A DNA stretch of 34,288 bases, from the NCBI GenBank assembly GCA_021826255.1, contig JAKBAZ010000003.1, forward strand, positions 1 through 34,288. The letters run 5' to 3'. The notes below the pieces were generated by a model, which saw only the letters and a list, made by a program, of their open reading frames with translations, ran no database searches and was not told the origin of the DNA. The stretch is from Actinomycetes bacterium (lineage in GTDB: Bacteria > Actinomycetota > Acidimicrobiia > Acidimicrobiales > RAAP-2). This document shows, piece after piece, positions 583 to 12,315 of this stretch. Within the stretch, counting starts at the first letter, position 1, and each line of letters begins with the position of its first letter. Both the position numbers and the translations under genes were made by a program.

Positions 583-1812
583 CTACTTCGCCAACTGTTG
601 TGAGCGCCGACCCACCACGTCCACCAACACGGCGGCGATGAGGACGACACCGGTCACGATGTACTGAGCGGGACCAGACAACTGAATCAGGGTCAGTCCG
701 TTCTTGATGACCGCGAGAATCACGCCACCGAGCACCGCTCCCACCATGCGACCGCGACCACCGAAGAGGCTCACCCCACCGATGACTGCTCCGGCAACGG
801 CGTAGAGAACGATGGTCGAGTCCGTCGACGATGACGCGATTCCGCCCAACTGAGAGATCAGCATGAGACCGGCAATCGCGGCGGTAAATCCCCCGAGCAT
901 GAAGGCGTAGATCCGGTACCGGTCGACCGGAATACCGGCTCGACGCGCCGCTTCGGCGTTGCCACCAATCGCGTACATGTACCGCCCGAACTTTGTTCGT
1001 CCGAGGATGAAAGAGTAGAGGCCGACCAGGGCGAAAACGATCGGCACGGCGAAGGGAACACCCGTCACGGCGATGAAGGACCCGCGGTTCACCGAGAAGA
1101 TGTAGCCGAGGAAGAGTCCGACCGCGGCGATCACTACCACCCGCAAGACGAGCTTCCACAGTGCGGGTGCGGTGAGTCCCGCGGCCTTGCGCTTGGCGCG
1201 GCGTACGAAAGCGAGAGCACTCAACCCCACCACCACCGCAATCACGAAGATCCACGACCACGTGGGTGTCAGATCGCCCGCGATGAGGTTGCGCAAGACG
1301 GCGTTTTGAACCGGCACTCCACCACCCTGGAAGACCTTGTCCAACTCGTAGATGACGAGGCCCTGGACGATGAGTTGCATTCCCAACGTCACGATGAATG
1401 AGGCCACCTTGAACTTCACCGTGAGAAAGCCCGACACCGCGGCCACAATGACTGCAGCCACGATACCGAGAAGGAACGCCACGGGCCAGGGCCACCCGTA
1501 CTGCACGTTGGTGTAGATACCGGCGAGCATCCCCGCGCCCGTCGAGGCCCATCCGAGAGACAGGTCAATCTCACCGAGGAGCAAGAGCCACGTTTCGGCC
1601 ATAGCCAAGAGAACGTAGACCGCCGCTTGAGTGAAGAGGTTGGCGATGTTGGCGGCTTGAAGAAAGACCGAACTACGAATCTCGAAGTAGACGACGAGAA
1701 GAACCAGTGCAACGAGCACCGGAATAAGACCGGAGTCTTGGCGAAGGAGTTTGCGTAACGCGTCCAACCACGACGTTGTGGAGGGGGTGTCGGAAATGGT
1801 GTCAGTGGTCAT
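583..1812 (-). CDS. Sugar ABC transporter permease (XylH/RbsC-like, BPD_transp_2)
   Basis: 409 aa, many TM segments. Motifs GEIDLSLGWASTGAGMLAG and GGVSLFGGRGRMVGAVLGGVIL typical of ribose/xylose-type permeases. Next to ATPase and binding-protein genes. Confidence 0.9.
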   Translation of the reverse strand: MTTDTISDTPSTTSWLDALRKLLRQDSGLIPVLVALVLLVVYFEIRSSVFLQAANIANLFTQAAVYVLLAMAETWLLLLGEIDLSLGWASTGAGMLAGIYTNVQYGWPWPVAFLLGIVAAVIVAAVSGFLTVKFKVASFIVTLGMQLIVQGLVIYELDKVFQGGGVPVQNAVLRNLIAGDLTPTWSWIFVIAVVVGLSALAFVRRAKRKAAGLTAPALWKLVLRVVVIAAVGLFLGYIFSVNRGSFIAVTGVPFAVPIVFALVGLYSFILGRTKFGRYMYAIGGNAEAARRAGIPVDRYRIYAFMLGGFTAAIAGLMLISQLGGIASSSTDSTIVLYAVAGAVIGGVSLFGGRGRMVGAVLGGVILAVIKNGLTLIQLSGPAQYIVTGVVLIAAVLVDVVGRRSQQLAK

Positions 1813-1829
1813 CGTGAGCCCTTAGAGAG

Positions 1830-2672
1830 TTACGCGAAGGAGTGGAGGGGGTGGGGTTCGACTCGCTCTGAGGCGCCCGTGGTGATCAGTTCCACGGTGC
1901 TTGAGGGGTCGTACTTCGAAATTGGACCGTTGGAAACCAGGTTTCCGAGGTACATCACGGCGATGCGATCGGCAACCGCAAACACGTCGTTCAAGTTGTG
2001 AGAAATCACCAGAACAGAGATGCCCCGACTGGACAACGTCTTAATCAGGTTCAAGACGTTGGCCGTCTGAGTTACTCCGAGCGCCGCGGTCGGCTCGTCC
2101 ATGATGACCAGTCTGGCGTCGCGCATCACCGCGCGGGCGACAGCAATGGCCTGACGTTGACCCCCCGAGAGGGATCCCACCAACTGACGAACCGACTTCA
2201 CGGTCGACACTTGGAGGTCCTTCAGGGTTTGAACCGTCTTCAACTCCATCGAAATTTCGTCGAGCGCCCCAGCGGACGTGTCCTCGAATCCGAGAAACAT
2301 GTTGCCGACGATGTCGATGTTGTCGCACAGCGCTAAGTCCTGGTACACGGTGGCAATCCCGAGTGCGGCGGCATCGCGAGGGGTGTGGGGGTGGACTTCT
2401 TGTCCGTTCCACATCATCGTGCCTGACGACGGCGCGTAGATACCGGCGATGGCCTTAATCAGGGTCGACTTTCCGGCACCGTTGTCACCCACCAGGGCAG
2501 TGACTTGCCCGGCGGGGATGTCGAGATCAACGCGCTGGAGGGCCTGCACGGGCCCAAAGTTCTTACTAATGCCTCGAAGCGCGAGCAGAGGAACCGAGGG
2601 TTGCCCTCCGCCAGAGTTATCCATCGGGGGCCGCGCCGTAGTGTCCGGCGTGCTCGAGTTGGTCTCTGACAT
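1830..2672 (-). CDS. Sugar ABC transporter ATP-binding protein, single NBD
   Basis: 280 aa. Walker A GDNGAGKST, signature LSGGQRQ, Walker B LVIMDEPTAALG. Only one nucleotide-binding domain. Confidence 0.92.
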   Translation of the reverse strand: MSETNSSTPDTTARPPMDNSGGGQPSVPLLALRGISKNFGPVQALQRVDLDIPAGQVTALVGDNGAGKSTLIKAIAGIYAPSSGTMMWNGQEVHPHTPRDAAALGIATVYQDLALCDNIDIVGNMFLGFEDTSAGALDEISMELKTVQTLKDLQVSTVKSVRQLVGSLSGGQRQAIAVARAVMRDARLVIMDEPTAALGVTQTANVLNLIKTLSSRGISVLVISHNLNDVFAVADRIAVMYLGNLVSNGPISKYDPSSTVELITTGASERVEPHPLHSFA

Positions 2673-2737
2673 GGGGGGTCTCCTCGGTTCCTCTTACTCG
2701 CTACTTCAGTACTGCGTTAAGGCGTGAAACTACTCGA

Positions 2738-3967
2738 CTACTTGATGCCGTAGGTCTTGCAGTCCTGGGCGTAGGTCGGAGCCTTGAAGCCCTTCACCGC
2801 CGGGCGGAAGCTCGTGCAGAGCGCCACCGGGCTGATGACGCCGTTCGCCACCACCGTCTTCTCGACGTTCGCCGCAGTCACCCAGGTCGGGGTCAGCAAG
2901 ACGGACGCGACCGAGCGGTGCGCAACCTTGTCAGCCGTGTGGCCGTTGACGAGACCCGCGGGAGGAGCCATGCCGGCGCGGAGGTAGAGCGCCAGAGCCG
3001 CAGCGGCCTGAGCTTCCTGCCAGATCGGCTTGTAGACGGTGCCGCACTGGTAGCCAGAGATGATGTTCTGGAAACCGGTGAGGGTCGCGTCTTGACCCGT
3101 GAACGGAATGGACTTCGGCTTCAGGCCCTGGCCCTGGAGGAACGAGATGATCGGCGCAGCGTTCTCGTCGTTCGGAGTAACGACCGCGTTGATCTTGCTG
3201 TTCTTCGAGAAGGCACCCTGGAAGTCAGTCAGCGCCTGCGACGGGGTCCACGTACCGGTTCCGGTCTCGTTGATCGTCTTGGCGTTGCCCATACCACCCA
3301 CGGCAGCCATGTAGCCAGCCTTGTTCAGCACGCCGTCGTAGCCCTGAGCGAACAGCACCGCGTTGTTGTCGGTGGTGGTCGAACCGTTCATGACGTAGAG
3401 CAGCGGGTTCTTGACGTGCCAGGCGCTGATGCAGGACAGCACGCCCTGACCGATCAACTGACCGACAGTCACGTTGTTGAAGCTGACGTAGTACTTCGCC
3501 GAACCACCGACGGTGAGACGGTCGTAGTCGATGACCTGAACACCGGCCTTCTTGGCGAGCGTCTCAATGGTCTTACCCGTGGTCGAGTCCAGCGGGTCCA
3601 TGATGAGGACCTTGTCCTTCGCCGCGATGTCGGCCTGAGCAATGGCGATCTCGTTCGAGGCCACGCCCTGGGCGTTCTGGACGTTGATCTGCGAGGTCGA
3701 CAGACCGGCGTCGGTCAGCGCCTGCGTGATGTTCGGAGCGTCGAACTCGACGTAGCGGTTGGACGACACTTCGTCGGGGAGGATCACTCCGATTCCCGAC
3801 TTCGACATCCCCGCAATCTTCTGAAGGCCAAACATCGCCGAATACGTCGGCGTGAAGGACTTCGCCGTCACTCCACCACTAGCCCCACTCACTCCCGGGA
3901 TCAAGGCGGCAGCACCGCTGCCCACCAAGGTCGCCGAGGCGAGGAGCTTCACAATCTTGGAATTCAT
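2738..3967 (-). CDS. Sugar ABC transporter substrate-binding protein (XylF-like, periplasmic binding protein type 1)
   Basis: 409 aa, N-terminal signal peptide (MNSKIVKLLASATLVGSGAAALIPG). Type-1 PBP features (VLIMDPLDSTTGKTI, AQGYDGVL, VVTPNDENAAPII). Confidence 0.88.
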   Translation of the reverse strand: MNSKIVKLLASATLVGSGAAALIPGVSGASGGVTAKSFTPTYSAMFGLQKIAGMSKSGIGVILPDEVSSNRYVEFDAPNITQALTDAGLSTSQINVQNAQGVASNEIAIAQADIAAKDKVLIMDPLDSTTGKTIETLAKKAGVQVIDYDRLTVGGSAKYYVSFNNVTVGQLIGQGVLSCISAWHVKNPLLYVMNGSTTTDNNAVLFAQGYDGVLNKAGYMAAVGGMGNAKTINETGTGTWTPSQALTDFQGAFSKNSKINAVVTPNDENAAPIISFLQGQGLKPKSIPFTGQDATLTGFQNIISGYQCGTVYKPIWQEAQAAAALALYLRAGMAPPAGLVNGHTADKVAHRSVASVLLTPTWVTAANVEKTVVANGVISPVALCTSFRPAVKGFKAPTYAQDCKTYGIK

Positions 3968-4024
3968 CTCCCCAACTCATTTCTGACGCCCGAAGACGTC
4001 GTTTGTAATTGCATCGGTTTACCG

Positions 4025-4040
4025 CCTCACTCGCGTGAGG
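4025..4040 (-). promoter_or_regulatory. Leader hairpin upstream of xylF-like gene, CCTCAC-GCGA-GTGAGG
   Basis: Perfect 6-bp stem; on the mRNA (minus) strand the loop is the GNRA tetraloop GCGA. Lies 58-73 nt upstream of the ATG at 3967. Confidence 0.45.
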
Positions 4041-4135
4041 GGGCAGGTGTGAAAGTAGCAGAACTTTGAACACTGTGAACGCCACATGAACGAAAGATAG
4101 GAAGACGTCATCGAGCGTTGAAGACTCTCGCGAAA

Positions 4136-4149
4136 TGCAAGCGCTTGCA
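4136..4149. promoter_or_regulatory. LacI-family operator-like perfect palindrome TGCAAGCGCTTGCA
   Basis: 14-bp perfect palindrome with central CG, matching the general LacI-family operator form; in the intergenic region upstream of the xylF-like gene. Confidence 0.7.
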
Positions 4150-4248
4150 GTGCTTTCGGCGACCGACAATCGCGAGTTTCACGTGCCCCGATTGTCACGC
4201 AGAGTGGCTATCGGGTGAGGCGGAATCCCGGGTGAAGTTGTGGTGCCG

Positions 4249-5001
4249 TTACTGGTTCAAGCCGGTGATGGTGCCGAGCAAACTCTCGACGGTGAACTCC
4301 GACGTCGGGGCGTCGCGGACGATACGACCAAGACGCAACACGATGATTCGGTCCGTCACTTCGAGGACGTGGGGCAGTGTGTGCGAGATGAATAAGACGC
4401 ACAGTCCTCGATCGCGCGCCGCCTTCATCACCTTCAGCACCTCGATGGATTGACGCGCCCCGAGGTGGTTCGTGGGCTCGTCGAGGATGATGACGTGCTT
4501 GGCCCACATCGCGGCCCGACCAATGGCCACCGCTTGACGTTGACCACCGGACAGTTCGGACACCGTACGCTTGGCGGCCCCGATGGAGATACCCACTTTT
4601 TCGAGTTCCTCCATAGCCTGAGTCTCCATGGAACGCTGGTCTAAAAACCCCAAGCGACCGAGAACGTTGCGGCGTCGCAGTTCGCGTCCTAGGAAGATGT
4701 TGGATCCAATCGTGAGGTCGGGCGCGAGTCCGGAGTCTTGGTAGAGCGTCTCGATTCCCGCCTCGATGGCGTCGTGGGGGGACTTCCAGTGTCGAGGCGT
4801 CCCGTCGACGAGAATCTCCCCTTCGTCGGGAGTGTAAACACCCGAGATGGTCTTAATCATTGACGACTTACCGGCACCGTTGTCACCCACGAGTCCGATG
4901 ATCTGACCGGCGAAGGCCTGGAAACTCACGTCGGTCAGCGCCCTCACGGAACCGTAGGACTTCGACACGTGGCGAAGTTCGAGAATGGGGGTGTCGGTCA
5001 T
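4249..5001 (-). CDS. Sugar ABC transporter ATP-binding protein, single NBD (FrcA-like)
   Basis: 250 aa. Walker A GDNGAGKSS, LSGGQRQ, HVIILDEPTNHLG. Overlaps the permease start by 4 nt. Confidence 0.92.
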   Translation of the reverse strand: MTDTPILELRHVSKSYGSVRALTDVSFQAFAGQIIGLVGDNGAGKSSMIKTISGVYTPDEGEILVDGTPRHWKSPHDAIEAGIETLYQDSGLAPDLTIGSNIFLGRELRRRNVLGRLGFLDQRSMETQAMEELEKVGISIGAAKRTVSELSGGQRQAVAIGRAAMWAKHVIILDEPTNHLGARQSIEVLKVMKAARDRGLCVLFISHTLPHVLEVTDRIIVLRLGRIVRDAPTSEFTVESLLGTITGLNQ

Positions 5002-6038
5002 GAGCGCCTCCTCAAGCGAAGTCGTCCACTCTGAATGATGCTCGCGACGGCCACGACGCTCGCCACGACCACGGGCACCCAGTTTGCGGAGACGTTGACG
5101 AAGATGGCGCCATCTTGGACGACGATCAAGATGGCCGCACCGAGAACGGTGCCGAGAAAGGTTCCCGAACCTCCGAAGAGGCTGGTGCCACCAATCACCA
5201 CGGCCGCGATGGCGATGAGAGTGGTGGTCTGGCCAGTGGTCGGAGCTCCAGAACCCAGGCGAATGTCGAAGAACATTCCGGTCAGACCGGCGAGGGCCCC
5301 GGAGAGCACGTAGAACGAACCGACGTACTTCTTCACTCCAATACCCGCGGCGCGTGCCGCGAAGTTGTTAGATCCGATCGCGAAGGTGTAGCGACCGTAG
5401 CGGGCCTTGCGTAGTACGAGGCCCAACACCACCGTGATACCAATCACGATGAGCGAGAGCCAGCTGAGAAAGGGTAGGCCGGGAATCGTCGCCGCCGACC
5501 AGGTCTGTGCCCCCGGGTTTAATCCGTAGGGTTGTCCCCCGGTCCAGACCAGGGCGAGACCCTGTCCGCCGTACCACATGGCGAGGGTCGCGACGAAGGG
5601 GACCACATTGAATCCGACGATAAGGGTGGCGTTGATGGCCCCGGCGACCATGCCCACCAGAAGCGCTACCCCCGTACCAAGGAGCAGGACGACCGCCTCG
5701 TTCGTGTGCGAGTTAATCAGCGGTTGCATGGCTCTCGCGGCGAGCACTCCCGCCACGGCCATAACGCTCCCCACCGAGAGGTCGATTCCCCCGGAGATGA
5801 TGACGAAGGTTTCGGCCACCGCGACGAGGACCAGGCCGGAGAAGTCCGCGAGAAGAAACGACATCTCCGAGGACGTGAAGAACCTCGAGTTGTGGTTGCC
5901 AAGGAACAGCATCAATGCGATGAGGATGAAGACCAGCACCGTCAATTGATTGGTGAGAAGTGCGCGCCACCGGGGTACCTCCGTCACCGGAGTGACGAGG
6001 TTCGGGGGTGATGCGGACAAATCTTCAGACGAGGACAC
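4998..6038 (-). CDS. Sugar ABC transporter permease (RbsC-like)
   Basis: 346 aa. SGGIDLSVGSVMAVAGVLAA and GGTSLFGGSGTFLGTVLGAAIL typical of RbsC-family permeases. Confidence 0.92.
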   Translation of the reverse strand: MSSSEDLSASPPNLVTPVTEVPRWRALLTNQLTVLVFILIALMLFLGNHNSRFFTSSEMSFLLADFSGLVLVAVAETFVIISGGIDLSVGSVMAVAGVLAARAMQPLINSHTNEAVVLLLGTGVALLVGMVAGAINATLIVGFNVVPFVATLAMWYGGQGLALVWTGGQPYGLNPGAQTWSAATIPGLPFLSWLSLIVIGITVVLGLVLRKARYGRYTFAIGSNNFAARAAGIGVKKYVGSFYVLSGALAGLTGMFFDIRLGSGAPTTGQTTTLIAIAAVVIGGTSLFGGSGTFLGTVLGAAILIVVQDGAIFVNVSANWVPVVVASVVAVASIIQSGRLRLRRRS

Positions 6039-6091
6039 GAAATACCCCTACCGTTTCATTCGGCTCACGAGCCCAGTGGGCGCAATGTGGA

Positions 6092-6131
6092 GACGGCCCC
6101 CGAGCGTACCGAAGTACACCCGGGGGCCGTC
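6092..6131 (-). promoter_or_regulatory. Intercistronic hairpin between binding-protein and permease genes
   Basis: GACGGCCCCCG (6092-6102) pairs perfectly with CGGGGGCCGTC (6121-6131). The 18-nt loop contains GTAC-CGAA-GTAC, which can nest. No T-tract. Confidence 0.65.
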
Positions 6132-6152
6132 GGACTACTTAAGTGACAGGTC

Positions 6153-7178
6153 CTAGCTCGCCACGTAGACGTAGGTCGAGCACAGCTTGGCGCAGTTCTG
6201 CGGCGTCAGCAAGATGTTCGGCAACGTCTGGAGGTGAGGAATGCCCCTGGCGTTCTTGTGAACGAGACGGTCGTAGGCGTACTGAATGATCAGCTTGCCT
6301 TCGAGGGTCGGCTGCTGGGCCACGATGGCCGCCAGCTTCCCGGCCTGCATGTTGGCGATGTTGGTCGCGTACGAGTCGTAACCCACCACCTTGATGTTGG
6401 CCCCAGCCGAACCAGCCGCGGCGATCGCCGACGCGGCCCCTTCGGCGTCGGTACCGTCAATGGCGAAGATACCCGCGAGGCTGTGCGCCGCGATGTCCTG
6501 CGAGAAGCCCGACTGGGCCACCGAAGGCTGCGACTGCGACACGACCGGGTTCAGCGCCGTGATGTTGGGGTACTTCTTCTTCAGTTCCTGGTTGAAGCCG
6601 AGGAGTCGAGCGGCGTCCGTCGAGGTCGTCACCGAACTCACACCCACCGCAACGACGCACTTCTTCGCCTTCGTGCAGGCCGTCTTGTACTTCAGGGCCG
6701 CGGCCAACGCGTCGGCAGCCGCTTGGCCACCCTGCACGTTGTTACCCGTCACCCACGCGGTGATGTTGCTCTGAACACTCGAACCCGAGTCCACGTTGAA
6801 GACCGGAATCCCCTGCTTCACCGCTTGAGCCATCACGGAGTTCAGAGCCTTCGTGTCGGTCGGCGCCACCACGAGGGCGTTTGGCTTCTCCGCGAGGACC
6901 TGCTGAATGATGGGCAGCTGAGTCGCCGGCGAGTAGTCGACGGGGTCACCCGACCAGATCAGGTTGATTCCGAGGGCCTTGGCTTCCTTCGACGCACCCA
7001 CGTACATCGACTGGAAGAACGGGTCCGCTTCGGCACCCACGACAAATCCGACGGTGAACTTCTTGCCGGCCGCGCCCGCCGGGTTCGCCCCGGTTCCGAC
7101 GAAGGCCAGCGCCGACGCCGCGAGCGTCGACACCACTGCGGCGCCCGAGAACAGGCGCACTGTACGTGACTTCTTCAC
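6153..7178 (-). CDS. Sugar ABC transporter substrate-binding protein (RbsB-like)
   Basis: 341 aa, signal peptide, ribose/autoinducer-2-type PBP pattern (VVAPTDTKALNSVMAQAVKQGIPVFNVDSG, GIFAIDGTDAEGAASAI). GTG start. Confidence 0.9.
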   Translation of the reverse strand: MKKSRTVRLFSGAAVVSTLAASALAFVGTGANPAGAAGKKFTVGFVVGAEADPFFQSMYVGASKEAKALGINLIWSGDPVDYSPATQLPIIQQVLAEKPNALVVAPTDTKALNSVMAQAVKQGIPVFNVDSGSSVQSNITAWVTGNNVQGGQAAADALAAALKYKTACTKAKKCVVAVGVSSVTTSTDAARLLGFNQELKKKYPNITALNPVVSQSQPSVAQSGFSQDIAAHSLAGIFAIDGTDAEGAASAIAAAGSAGANIKVVGYDSYATNIANMQAGKLAAIVAQQPTLEGKLIIQYAYDRLVHKNARGIPHLQTLPNILLTPQNCAKLCSTYVYVAS

Positions 7179-7230: not shown

Positions 7231-7242
7231 GACAACGTTGTC
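7231..7242. promoter_or_regulatory. LacI-family operator GACAACGTTGTC
   Basis: 12-bp perfect palindrome just downstream of the predicted -10 of the rbsB-like gene. Nearly identical to the element at 8394-8405. Confidence 0.75.
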
Positions 7243-7246
7243 TCAG

Positions 7247-7275
7247 ACTTTACCGAGCCACTTCCCCGCTGTCAA
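7247..7275 (-). promoter_or_regulatory. Sigma-70 promoter for the rbsB-like operon: TTGACA-N17-TAAAGT
   Basis: Minus strand reads TTGACA (7275-7270), 17-nt spacer, TAAAGT (7252-7247). Confidence 0.75.
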
Positions 7276-7285
7276 ACATCTTCGG

Positions 7286-8338
7286 CTAGACGACCGACGG
7301 CGCAGGAATCTCACCGGATCCGCGGATCACCAACTCGCTCGGGACGACGACTTCGCGAACCGGAGAGGTGTCACCGTCGAGGCGGCAGAACAGCAAGGTG
7401 GCCGCTTCTCTAGCAATTCTTTCGGGATTCTGAGCGACGACCGTGACTGCCGGTTCGAGGAGATCGGCCATAATGAGGTCGTCGAAACCCACGACGGCGA
7501 CTCGCTGTTGCAAGTGTCGAGAACGAATTGCCCGAAGCGCTCCCATAAGTACGAGGTTTTGTCCGGCGAATAAGGCGGTGGGCGGATTGGCGGAATCGAG
7601 TAGCCGACCGACCACGTGTTCGGCCGCCGGAGCCGTTCGCAAATCGAGGTGCACCAGGGTGGGATCAACGCTCAGTCCCGCTTCACTCATCGCGTCGCGA
7701 AATCCGGCGAATCTCTCCTGAGAGGTGTAGATCGTAGTGAGATCACCCAGAAAGGCGATTCGACGGTGCCCGTATCGAAGAAGGTGCCGAGTCGCTCTCG
7801 TCACGCCGTCGCGCGAATCACTCAGCACGCAGTCTGCTTCGAGATTGACTGGTGGGCGGTCGACGAAGACAAAGGGGGTTCCGGCACGCTGCTCGCGAGC
7901 GAGGTAGCTGTGGTCTCGTGACGCGGGAGCCATGATGAAGCCGTCGACACGATGGCGTGACATCGCGGCCGTCAGAGTCAGTTCTCGCTCGGGGTCCTCC
8001 TCGAAACTTCCACCGACCACCACGACACTTCGCCTGATAGCCACTTCTTCCACCGAACGATAGATCGTGGCTGAAAAGGGATTGGAGAGATCCTCGAGCA
8101 AGACCGCAATAGTGGACGACCGTCCGTCCAGTCTCCGTAGGGCGCTGGCTGAGATATTGGGTTGGTAGTGCAGTTGGGCCGCCGCCAGTCGAACTCGGCT
8201 GGCCAACTCCTCGTTCACGGTGGACTCGTTATTGACAACGCGCGATACGGTCTTCAAGCTGACCCCGGCCAACGCGGCCACGTCTTTCATCGTGGCCCGA
8301 GGGCCCGACGCGCGACCCGCATTCAACTCTTTTGCCAC
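7286..8338 (-). CDS. LacI/GalR-family transcriptional regulator
   Basis: 350 aa. N-terminal HTH ATMKDVAALAGVSLKTVSRVVNNESTVNEELASRV; type-1 PBP sensor domain. Confidence 0.96.
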   Translation of the reverse strand: MAKELNAGRASGPRATMKDVAALAGVSLKTVSRVVNNESTVNEELASRVRLAAAQLHYQPNISASALRRLDGRSSTIAVLLEDLSNPFSATIYRSVEEVAIRRSVVVVGGSFEEDPERELTLTAAMSRHRVDGFIMAPASRDHSYLAREQRAGTPFVFVDRPPVNLEADCVLSDSRDGVTRATRHLLRYGHRRIAFLGDLTTIYTSQERFAGFRDAMSEAGLSVDPTLVHLDLRTAPAAEHVVGRLLDSANPPTALFAGQNLVLMGALRAIRSRHLQQRVAVVGFDDLIMADLLEPAVTVVAQNPERIAREAATLLFCRLDGDTSPVREVVVPSELVIRGSGEIPAPSVV

Positions 8339-8359
8339 CTACTACTCCCCCAGCCTGGT

Positions 8360-8373
8360 GGTCGACGTCGACC
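8360..8373. promoter_or_regulatory. Perfect palindrome GGTCGACGTCGACC in lacI-pfkB intergenic region
   Basis: 14-bp perfect palindrome 22 bp upstream of the LacI-family ATG; possible autoregulatory site. Confidence 0.45.
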
Positions 8374-8392
8374 GGCAATCGGATGTTAGGTG

Positions 8393-8406
8393 AGATAACG
8401 TTGTCT
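8393..8406. promoter_or_regulatory. LacI-family operator AGATAACGTTGTCT upstream of pfkB-like gene
   Basis: Near-palindrome (6 of 7 pairs) sharing GA[CT]AACGTTGTCT with 7231-7243. Confidence 0.7.
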
Positions 8407-8427
8407 TTCAAGAACTGAGGGGGGACT

Positions 8428-9387
8428 GTGGCTCAGCGCGTGGCCGTCATCGGTGAGAATCTCGTGGATCTTTTCGTCAATTCCGAGGGCGTCATCACGG
8501 GGGTGGTTGGCGGTGGGCCGCTCAATGTCGCTCGAACCGTGGCCCGGCTAGGGGGTAACGCGGACTTCGTCTCTGGGATATCGGACGACATCTTTGGCCG
8601 ACGAATTCGAGAGGTCGCCACCGCCGACGGAGTACACCTCGCGCGCCCGGTCGCTTCGCCCCGACCCACCACTATGGCTCTCGTGGAACTGAGCGCTGGG
8701 GACGCGCGCTACCACTTTCATCTGCGAGACACCGCGGCGTTTGACGTGGACGACGTCAGCGATCTCGTCGACGTGGGCGCCCTCTACGTCGGCACTCTGG
8801 GTCTCGTCGTTGCCCCCATGGCCGACTCGTGCCTACTCGCCGTGAGGAACGCCGACGAGCGAACACTGGTGGTGCTCGATCCCAACTGTCGCCCCCAAGC
8901 CACACCTCACCGTGAGGAGTACGTCACACGAATCATCGCTCTGTGTGCGCGCACGGACGTGCTCAAGGTATCGGTAGATGACCTCGACTTTCTTTTTCCC
9001 GGACTCGATCCCCAATCGGGGGGCGAGAAGTTGAGAGAGGCGGGGGCCAGACTCGTCGTCGTGACCGACGGCGGAGAACCCATCCGGGCGCTCGTGGGTG
9101 AACGCTGGATCGAAGTTCCGGTGGCACCCGTCGCGGTGGTTGACACCGTAGGAGCCGGTGACTCGCTCGTGGGGGCGTTCATCGTGTGGTGGCTCGGACA
9201 CGACCTCAGCCGGTCCAGCCTGGTGGACGAGTCGTTCGTGGATCCCGCGCTTCGAGCCGCGGTCGACGTCTCTCGACGGACCTGCATGGTTCACGGGGCC
9301 GAGCCACCCCACCTCGATGAGGTCCTCTCCGAGGACACCTGGAGTTGGGCTAGGACGGACTCATCCACCACTCCATCAACTCCATGA
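8428..9387 (+). CDS. PfkB-family carbohydrate kinase (fructokinase-like)
   Basis: 319 aa. GGGPLNVARTVARLGG N-terminal signature and DTVGAGDSLVGAF C-terminal signature. GTG start with RBS gaggggg. Confidence 0.93.
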   Translation: MAQRVAVIGENLVDLFVNSEGVITGVVGGGPLNVARTVARLGGNADFVSGISDDIFGRRIREVATADGVHLARPVASPRPTTMALVELSAGDARYHFHLRDTAAFDVDDVSDLVDVGALYVGTLGLVVAPMADSCLLAVRNADERTLVVLDPNCRPQATPHREEYVTRIIALCARTDVLKVSVDDLDFLFPGLDPQSGGEKLREAGARLVVVTDGGEPIRALVGERWIEVPVAPVAVVDTVGAGDSLVGAFIVWWLGHDLSRSSLVDESFVDPALRAAVDVSRRTCMVHGAEPPHLDEVLSEDTWSWARTDSSTTPSTP

Positions 9388-10309
9388 TGGCGACGGTCTC
9401 GTCGTGCGGCATGACGGGACTTTCGAGAAGCCCGGCCCTGAGGCACCGAGCGACTTCTTGAGCCTGGTAGTGAAGCCCACGTCCCGTAACGGGAAAGTCG
9501 AATCGTGTCTCTTCGCCCGTTCGGTCGATCAAGGTGAAGCCCCGGGAGGCATAGAAATCCCCGTCAATCTCGACTCGAGCCTCCGTGCCCGACACGCACG
9601 CTCGAGTGGCACTTCGAGCGCTCGAGGTGCAGGTAATCAGAGCGTGGGCCCCACCGGGATATCCGAGTACCGCTGAGGCTTGTCCATCGACTCCGGTAAA
9701 GGCGGGGTCGGTGAGGGCGACGCGTCGATGGGGCAGTCCGAGGATCATCACCGCGAAGGACAAGGGGTAGACCCCGAGGTCGAGAATCGCCGACCCTCCA
9801 AGTTCGGGGGCGTAGAGCCGAGACGAGGGATCTTCGGCGAACCACTTGCCGTGATCAGCCTCGACAGTGCGAATCTCACCGAGGCGACCCTCGGCGATGA
9901 GTTGGCGAAGACGCACAATGTGGGGTAAGAAACGCGACCACATCGCCTCCATGACGAAGAGATTCCGGACCCGCGCCTCATCCACCACCTCACGTGCTTC
10001 GGCGCCAGTCATAGTGAACGCCTTTTCGACGAGCACCGGCTTGCCGGCCCGCAGGGCGAGGAGCGCGTTGTCTCGGTGAAAAGGGTGGGGAGTTCCCACG
10101 TAGACGACGTCCACCTCGGGATCGTCCACCAACTCCTCGTAGGACCCGTAGGACCTCGCCACCCCCATCTCTTCGGCGAACGCTCGGGCCGAGTCGGCAT
10201 TGCGTGAACCCACGGCGTGAACCCGCTGATCCTCCACGAACGTCAAGTCCGAGGTAAAGGTATGGGAGATCTTCCCCGTTCCAAGAACACCCCAGCGCAA
10301 CTCCGACAT
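9350..10309 (-). CDS. Gfo/Idh/MocA-family oxidoreductase
   Basis: MSELRWGVLGTGKISHTF Rossmann start; VVYVGTPHPFHRDNALLALRAGKPVLVEKAFT family motif. Start set to internal ATG at 10309. Confidence 0.93.
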   Translation of the reverse strand: MSELRWGVLGTGKISHTFTSDLTFVEDQRVHAVGSRNADSARAFAEEMGVARSYGSYEELVDDPEVDVVYVGTPHPFHRDNALLALRAGKPVLVEKAFTMTGAEAREVVDEARVRNLFVMEAMWSRFLPHIVRLRQLIAEGRLGEIRTVEADHGKWFAEDPSSRLYAPELGGSAILDLGVYPLSFAVMILGLPHRRVALTDPAFTGVDGQASAVLGYPGGAHALITCTSSARSATRACVSGTEARVEIDGDFYASRGFTLIDRTGEETRFDFPVTGRGLHYQAQEVARCLRAGLLESPVMPHDETVAIMELMEWWMSPS

Positions 10310-10353
10310 GCTGACTCCCTTCAGTCGACCCACCTTAGAAGGCGCTCGACCCC

Positions 10354-10365: not shown

Positions 10366-12315
10366 GTGCCCCTGCTCCGCGATGTTCAGCACCTCTCTGC
10401 GTACCTCGACGCTCATCGCGATAATCCGGTCGACTGGTGGGCGTGGGGTGAGGACGCGTTTGACGAAGCTCGTCGACGAGACGTTCCGCTTCTCATTTCC
10501 GTGGGCTACGCCGCGTGCCACTGGTGCCACGTGATGGCTCACGAGTCCTTCGAGAGTCCCACTCTTGCGGCCCTGCTCAACGAGAGTGTGGTAGCCATCA
10601 AAGTCGATCGAGAAGAGCGCCCCGATATCGATGCGCTCTATATGGCGGCCACGCAACTGTTATCGGGCCACGGGGGATGGCCCATGACGGTCTTCGTCCG
10701 ACCTGACGGACGACCCTTCGTTGCCGGCACCTACTATCCACCCTCCGATCGAGGCGGACTCGTGGGGTTTCCCACCCTGGTTCGCGCTGTCGCCGACGCG
10801 TGGAGAGACCGCCGAGACGTGGTGAACGACCAGGTGGAGAGACTCGACGAGGCTCTTCGGCGCGAAGTACGCGTCGTCGACCACCTCAGCCCCCACACCG
10901 ACGTCGGCAGTGACCTCGAGGCGGCGGAGGCTCGACTCGTAGACGAACTCGTCACCATGACCGATACTCACGGTGGTCACGGTGCTCCCCGTTTCCCGCG
11001 CCCCTCATTCGCGGAGGCTCTGTGGAGAGGACGCCACTCTGACGCGCGGGCGGCCGCAACCCGAATGCTGAGGTCCCTTTCTCGGGGCGGGCTCTTCGAC
11101 CATCTCGACGGTGGTTTCGCTCGTTACAGCGTCGACGAGTATTGGAACGTTCCTCACTTCGAGAAGATGCTGAGCGACCAAGCGTTGCTCGCTCGCACCT
11201 TCTGGCGCATCGGTAGCGACCCCGGCGCCGACCCGGAGTGGCGGATCGTGGCGGAACGAACCGCTGACTTCGTGGAGCGGAGACTTCGCCGGGGGGATCT
11301 CTACTGCTCCTCCCTCGACGCCGACGCCGACGGGCGAGAAGGAAGTCACGTGACCTGGACCCTCGACGAAGTCGACTCCGCCCTCGGCGACTTCCCGAGC
11401 ACCCTTCGCAACCGAGTACTCGAGCGGTACTGCATCCGGGCCGAGGGCGATCTCGAGGGACGCTGTGTCCCTCGCCTCGCCGCGAGTGAACCTTTTGAGG
11501 AGCCGAGAGAACTCGTCAACGCTCTCGAGCGACTGCGCGCGGTAAGAGAACAACGCCCGGCGCCCGCTCGGGACAACAAGATTGTCCTGGAATGGAACGC
11601 GATGTGGGCTAGTGCCCTCTTCGCCTCCCGCGATGCCTCGCTTGAACAACGCGCCCGCGACGTGCTCGTCGCCCTCGACACGACCTGCTCGGACGGTGAG
11701 ACGTGGTGGCGGACTGACTCGCGACAGCACCATGCGACGGCGTCCGACCTCGCGTGGTACCTCGACGCCCTGCTCGACGCCTTCGAGTCCGATGGGTCTC
11801 CCGAGTGGCTCGAACGAAGCAGACACGTGGCCACCGTCCTTCGGCGCGACTTCGTCGAGTCGGGCACGTTGCGCGTGAGCGCTCCCGACGCCGGCCTGTA
11901 CCTCGCCCCCCAGGAGGTCTTCGACGGGGCCACTCCCTCCGCTCACGCCATCGGCCTACGCGCTTTCGCCCGCCTCGGCCTGGTGGACGACCCGGCCTTC
12001 ACCGAGCTCGCGCGAGATCTCGCGCAATCGGTGACCCCTCTCGTGACAACTCATCCGCGCGCGGTCGTCGACTCCGTCGAGGCGTCGCGCTGGGTGGACG
12101 ATGCCGTCGAGGTGGTGATTCCGGGTGAACGGGGGGAACTCGCCCGTCACGTACGATCGATGCCGATGTTGCGCGCGATTCTCGTCACCGGTCAGGGATC
12201 GTCATCTCTTCTCGATGACAAGGCGCCCGGTTGGGCCTACGTCTGCCGTCGAGGGGTATGTCGACACCCCGTGAGCGACGTCGGCGCACTGACGAGCGCT
12301 CTCGAGGAGGCGTAG
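10366..12315 (+). CDS. yyaL: Thioredoxin-domain protein, DUF255/YyaL (SPATA20-like)
   Basis: 649 aa. YAACHWCHVMAHESFESPTLAALLNESVVAIKVDREERPDID is the family hallmark; C-terminal (alpha/alpha)6-like region. Confidence 0.93.
   Translation: MPLLRDVQHLSAYLDAHRDNPVDWWAWGEDAFDEARRRDVPLLISVGYAACHWCHVMAHESFESPTLAALLNESVVAIKVDREERPDIDALYMAATQLLSGHGGWPMTVFVRPDGRPFVAGTYYPPSDRGGLVGFPTLVRAVADAWRDRRDVVNDQVERLDEALRREVRVVDHLSPHTDVGSDLEAAEARLVDELVTMTDTHGGHGAPRFPRPSFAEALWRGRHSDARAAATRMLRSLSRGGLFDHLDGGFARYSVDEYWNVPHFEKMLSDQALLARTFWRIGSDPGADPEWRIVAERTADFVERRLRRGDLYCSSLDADADGREGSHVTWTLDEVDSALGDFPSTLRNRVLERYCIRAEGDLEGRCVPRLAASEPFEEPRELVNALERLRAVREQRPAPARDNKIVLEWNAMWASALFASRDASLEQRARDVLVALDTTCSDGETWWRTDSRQHHATASDLAWYLDALLDAFESDGSPEWLERSRHVATVLRRDFVESGTLRVSAPDAGLYLAPQEVFDGATPSAHAIGLRAFARLGLVDDPAFTELARDLAQSVTPLVTTHPRAVVDSVEASRWVDDAVEVVIPGERGELARHVRSMPMLRAILVTGQGSSSLLDDKAPGWAYVCRRGVCRHPVSDVGALTSALEEA

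Follow-up and report, generated by a model that had tools for sequence, protein, structure and literature searches.

A predicted autoregulated LacI-family sugar regulon with two palindromic operators in an acidimicrobial draft genome

Results

In the present study, the window, a stretch of 34,288 nucleotides from contig JAKBAZ010000003.1, was found to carry what is very probably (at about 0.88) a local LacI-family regulon. In this regulon a repressor at GAYAACGTTGTC sites would block a transporter operon and its own gene, and probably a pfkB-type kinase gene, and would presumably be released by a sugar. This reading draws on two palindromic sites, on how rare and how conserved they are, and on where they lie relative to promoter-like boxes, all of which were observed directly.

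On the plus strand, positions 7231-7242 read GACAACGTTGTC, a perfect palindrome followed by T, and positions 8393-8406 read AGATAACGTTGTCT, with the 12-mer core GATAACGTTGTC at 8394-8405. The two 12-mers have a single difference at position 3 (C or T), as an earlier note on this DNA had described, and it was equally right that they bracket the lacI-type gene (7286-8338, minus strand). Both are intergenic. Since the second site lies between the divergent lacI and pfkB genes (55 bp from the lacI start and 22 bp from pfkB), it stands upstream of both genes. The features of the locus are as follows.

583-3967, minus strand: second ABC transporter (XylF/ChvE-like substrate-binding protein, single-domain ATPase, permease); conserved neighbourhood
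4249-5001, minus strand: single-domain ATPase of transporter 1, 250 aa; profile matches
4998-6038, minus strand: permease (BPD_transp_2) of transporter 1; profile matches
6153-7178, minus strand: substrate-binding protein (SBP; Peripla_BP_4, distantly RbsB-like) of transporter 1; profile and PDB matches
7231-7242, no strand: predicted operator 1, GACAACGTTGTC, placed where transcription of the transporter operon is predicted to begin; invariant (2.0 bits per column) in the 15 genomes with the first transporter intact
7247-7252, minus strand: predicted -10 (TAAAGT) of the transporter operon; TTGACA-17-TAnnnT kept in relatives
7270-7275, minus strand: predicted -35 (TTGACA) of the transporter operon; consensus match
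7286-8338, minus strand: LacI-family regulator with recognition helix GVSLKTVSRVVN; profile matches, helix, alignment to RbsR
8383-8388, minus strand: predicted -10 (TAACAT) of lacI; consensus match
8394-8405, plus strand: predicted operator 2, GATAACGTTGTC, in the lacI promoter spacer, 22 bp before pfkB; 1.97 bits per column in 17 genomes
8406-8411, minus strand: predicted -35 (TTGAAA) of lacI; same geometry, with spacer 17-18, in 16 of 17 genomes
8428-9387, plus strand: sugar kinase of the PfkB family, closest to fructokinases and probably a third target; NCBIfam and PDB relatives
9350-10333, minus strand: Gfo/Idh/MocA oxidoreductase, conserved neighbour with no operator; profile match

The motif is not spread throughout the genome. 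Exact GAYAACGTTGTC sites were confined to these two places, both within the window and in the whole 1,412,194-bp assembly (about 80% complete), for which about 0.12 are expected from base composition. When two mismatches were allowed, the window held 17 matches against 5.0 +/- 2.8 in dinucleotide shuffles, and 17 was reached in none of 100 shuffles. Elsewhere in the assembly eight places differ by one mismatch, six of them inside ORFs as called by a heuristic; the other two comprise one with an altered centre (GACAAGGTTGTC) and one at an ORF edge.

The sites were compared across 99 congeners, 17 of which (the window's genome counted) have a close lacI orthologue in the same gene context. Exact sites were found in 17/17 of these genomes, while 15 of the 82 others have one somewhere, and GATAACGTTGTC is present in 16/17 versus 3/82; these counts are descriptive only, because these genomes are relatives of one another and membership of the class of 17 was settled only once the context had been seen. 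In genomes without any orthologue, 11 of the 12 sites examined fall inside ORFs. Congeners that carry an orthologous lacI keep the same gene order and the same two sites, and column information reaches 1.97 bits (operator 2) and 2.0 bits (operator 1) in the 12-mers against 0.3-1.0 bits in the flanks. The conservation upstream of orthologues, whose absence the earlier note had named as refuting, is present, and its proposal of a local sugar regulon gains support from the rarity of the sites, from this conservation and from a helix-turn-helix (HTH) type that fits the site.

Both sites are in close register with predicted promoters. The sequence TTGACA-17-TAAAGT precedes operator 1, so transcription of the SBP gene would start inside this operator; in the relatives the promoter has the form TTGACA-17/18-TAnnnT, and its -10 box begins 8-10 bases before the 12-mer. 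Operator 2 lies between the -35 and -10 boxes of the predicted lacI promoter (TTGAAA-17-TAACAT), in a geometry found in 16/17 genomes, and at this putative promoter it is first of all an autorepression site. The promoter boxes are consensus matches, and some lacI promoters are individually no better than shuffles. The proposed circuit of one repressor and two targets is supported for the transporter and plausible for pfkB, and the count rises to three predicted targets with lacI autorepression added. Co-control of uptake and phosphorylation is likewise backed at the transporter promoter, and its pfkB arm is the least certain of the three.

It is possible, but unlikely, that the repressor controls the transporter and itself alone, with operator 2 purely autoregulatory and pfkB transcribed independently. 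The place of operator 2 within the lacI promoter would suit such an arrangement, no consistent or conserved promoter in the pfkB direction was seen among the genomes compared, and in several relatives the pfkB start is about 90-115 bp from the site. Here, however, only 22 bp separate operator 2 from the pfkB start, so that any local pfkB promoter must overlap the operator, and in every genome whose locus is of the GAT version pfkB adjoins the site. Furthermore, one of the three genomes outside the context class that carry GATAACGTTGTC (G143) has a more distant lacI in tandem with pfkB, and its site directly precedes pfkB with no divergent lacI, which supports pfkB as a target. Overall, control of pfkB by the same repressor is considered plausible and indeed probable.

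The kinase had its best NCBIfam match in fructokinase NF006957 (107 bits against a cut-off of 450), compared with 47 against 300 for ribokinase, and in the PDB its relatives are annotated as fructokinase or as PfkB kinase of unspecified type. From the kinase, a ketohexose such as fructose may be proposed as the sugar, as a weak guess. The pfkB gene (8428-9387) convergently overlaps the Gfo/Idh/MocA gene, and a DUF255 thioredoxin-like gene (Thioredox_DsbH, 10366-12315) follows; the latter adjoins the locus in nearly all relatives with pfkB and has no operator of its own. In the nearest relatives, pfkB shows 65-67% identity, whereas the transporters show 86-97% and lacI 88-89%.

The product of 7286-8338 contains both the LacI HTH and the periplasmic-binding-protein-like sensor domain (PF00356, 61 bits with a cut-off of 27; PF13377, 116 bits; PF00532, 84 bits). 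Family rules link the hinge leucine and the Arg of TVSR to a CG centre and to G at NT-6 (PMC2978694, PMC3899939), and in TVSR proteins Arg-20 favours G at NT-6, with residues 15 and 16 setting NT-5 and NT-4 (PMC2978694). The regulator has the helix GVSLKTVSR and the hinge SALRR, the operator GACAAC-GTTGTC has a CG centre, and its half-site GACAAC has G at NT-6; the predicted pairing of the helix (LK-TVSR) with a CG-centred palindrome thus fits these rules. Among relatives with K-T[VA]SR helices, 13 have the palindrome within 700 bp of lacI at no more than one mismatch, against 0/39 relatives without the K; in 16 K-type LacI relatives, mostly from a Streptomyces group, the motif was absent near the gene. 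The regulator lies far below the curated cut-offs of RbsR (177 bits versus 382; 158 versus 531) and of all other named equivalogs. DNA looping by a lac-type tetramer was considered and rejected: the operator spacing (1163 bp here, about 1162-1273 bp in relatives) has no fixed helical phase, and the protein ends 9 residues beyond the part aligning to RbsR, so there is no sign of a tetramerisation tail.

The assembly contains two other LacI-type sequences and is only about 80% complete, and another regulator such as a second LacI paralogue could in principle bind the sites. This is very improbable, since their helices differ (VSAGTVSRA and VSVATVSRA), no exact or one-mismatch site was found beside either of them in the assembly, and across the genus the sites track the orthologue of the window's lacI.

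Changes in more diverged loci were also followed. In the more distant orthologues, those of 57-60% identity that lie directly before an SBP gene and have no adjoining pfkB, the site is TTGACAACGATGTCA or its mirror and overlaps the SBP promoter's -35 box, a position that is shifted and yet would still be blocking; the sister group L161, L163-L168 and L065 has such a site, with an asymmetric core, upstream of the SBP gene (TTGACAACGATGTCA). In two orthologues at 60% identity (G183, G185; L160, L162), no site was found near lacI. In G029 and G165 (L064, L072) transporter 1 lacks both SBP and permease and retains just a piece of its ATPase; its operator 1 has decayed to GCCAACGTTGTC and its promoter no longer fits the consensus, operator 2 is intact, and a further exact site stands before the second ABC operon. 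G017, in which transporter 1 is intact, also has such an extra site. A near-identical locus, with an SBP 97% identical, was seen in a record labelled Acidobacteria (L083, JAGXAY010000020.1), and another in one labelled Acidimicrobiaceae (L082); one of the two labels is probably wrong.

A few LacI-family members work as activators, and this precedent is what an activating role of the protein at these sites would have in its favour. Such a role is very unlikely, because both sites overlap or directly follow core promoter elements, and the site of the distant orthologues overlaps a -35 box; all of these are blocking positions.

Position 3 is T in every pfkB-side site, giving TAACGT (TATCGT in one relative), and C in the transporter-side sites. 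We tentatively suggest, as a rather doubtful extension, that operator and promoter are interlocked at the level of single bases, that TAACGT within the operator may serve as a -10 for pfkB, and that in the more distant orthologues the operator was displaced, its core little changed, from the start of transcription to the -35 box (TTGACAACGATGTCA). If so, the choice of C or T would set different strengths for uptake on one side and for kinase and regulator on the other, and one operator would have been re-registered on its promoter within the evolution of a single genus.

An extra regulon member was at first sight offered by GACAACGTTGTC in an aldose-epimerase-like gene common to six relatives (L183:425, L184:4409, L078:9423, L177:6695, L079:227, L080:7139). 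This 12-mer resembles a conserved distant operator, but it consists of Asp-Asn-Val-Val codons and is accounted for by the protein sequence, and it was therefore dropped. That the two palindromes of the window are themselves chance or coding-driven repeats, as such 12-mers in ORFs of other genomes might suggest, is scarcely credible, for they are intergenic, paired, the sole exact copies and invariant amid diverged flanks, a conservation footprint that contradicts it.

Leftwards the locus runs from lacI (8338-7286) over operator 1 to the SBP-permease-ATPase genes (7178-4249) and the second ABC operon (3967-583). In the window only the first transporter operon (4249-7178) has an operator; between it and the second ABC operon (3967-4249) no third operator was found, the best match having three mismatches, and three relatives have one there. 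The Peripla_BP_4 SBP and the BPD_transp_2 permease fit a CUT2-type sugar ABC transporter. Neither ATPase has the double-domain form of about 500 aa (RbsA/XylG type): those at 4249-5001 (250 aa) and 1830-2672 (280 aa) match the RbsA/XylG models over their first half only. Single-domain ATPases occur in some CUT2-type systems.

The operon had been called rbsB-like, and the site does stand before it, but the name does not mean ribose. The SBP gave its best PDB alignments with 5dkv and 4rxt and scored 85 bits against an RbsB equivalog cut-off of 337. Among the residues that contact ribose in E. coli RbsB, some are kept (the two Phe that follow Pro, and one Arg, Asp and Gln) and others are changed, which speaks against plain ribose; this is only a lead. 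A ribose regulon (RbsR/RbsB) was rejected, with RbsR, RbsB and ribokinase (47 versus 300) all below their cut-offs. The search for the sugar through PDB, NCBIfam and plasmid homologues returned generic or distant names only.

Discussion

From these data we infer binding, repression, the dimeric state, the inducer and the control of pfkB as follows. The product of 7286-8338 would act as a local repressor, probably as a dimer, that binds GAYAACGTTGTC. Bound at 7231-7242, it would cover the transcription start of the SBP-permease-ATPase operon and block it; bound at 8394-8405, it would fill the spacer between the -35 and -10 boxes of the lacI promoter and repress its own gene. The same binding would probably block pfkB, whose start lies opposite at a distance of 22 bp. 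Release of the repressor presumably comes from a sugar or sugar phosphate inside the cell, and uptake, and probably phosphorylation, would then be induced together.

The E. coli lac repressor has its operator O1 at the transcription start of a transport and catabolic operon. The present system is alike in that operator 1 is at a predicted transcription start and in that the regulator has the same fold and HTH. It differs in that operator 2 falls within the promoter of the regulator gene itself, in the centre and the half-site of the operator, and in that no tetramerisation tail or phased looping is seen.

Local LacI-family sugar regulons have been reconstructed by Ravcheev et al. 2014 (PMC4052901), with CG-centred palindromes 30-140 bp upstream of genes and autoregulation as the family norm, and with Actinobacteria, by their own account, under-represented in the survey. 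The window's regulon shares with them the even palindrome with central CG, the upstream sites, the regulator beside transporter and kinase genes and the predicted autoregulation; it differs in its operator sequence and regulator group, the regulator being far below named-equivalog cut-offs. In the literature searched no description of this operator sequence and regulator group was found, and of the eight papers that contain the string, the seven listed all deal with matters other than a LacI regulator. In the frc fructose locus of Sinorhizobium meliloti, sugar ABC transporter genes lie next to a divergent putative negative regulator, and the fructokinase gene frk is found within 2 kb (PMC10433430). 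The window likewise has ABC sugar transporter genes, a regulator and a fructokinase-like gene close together, a likeness drawn at the level of gene layout.

Conclusion

The same palindrome stands before neighbouring catabolic genes and before the regulator, and it is conserved in orthologous loci, as in a local autoregulated LacI regulon. LacI-family regulons built in this way are already well documented (PMC4052901), so the present one adds a new but ordinary case to a well-known type of sugar control and leaves the understanding of LacI regulation unchanged. It supplies a well-supported operator motif, a regulator and a target set for a genus that is represented here by fragmented draft genomes only and for which few such assignments exist. 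The regulon thereby becomes searchable, and the helix type K-T[VA]SR is tied to the half-site GACAAC.
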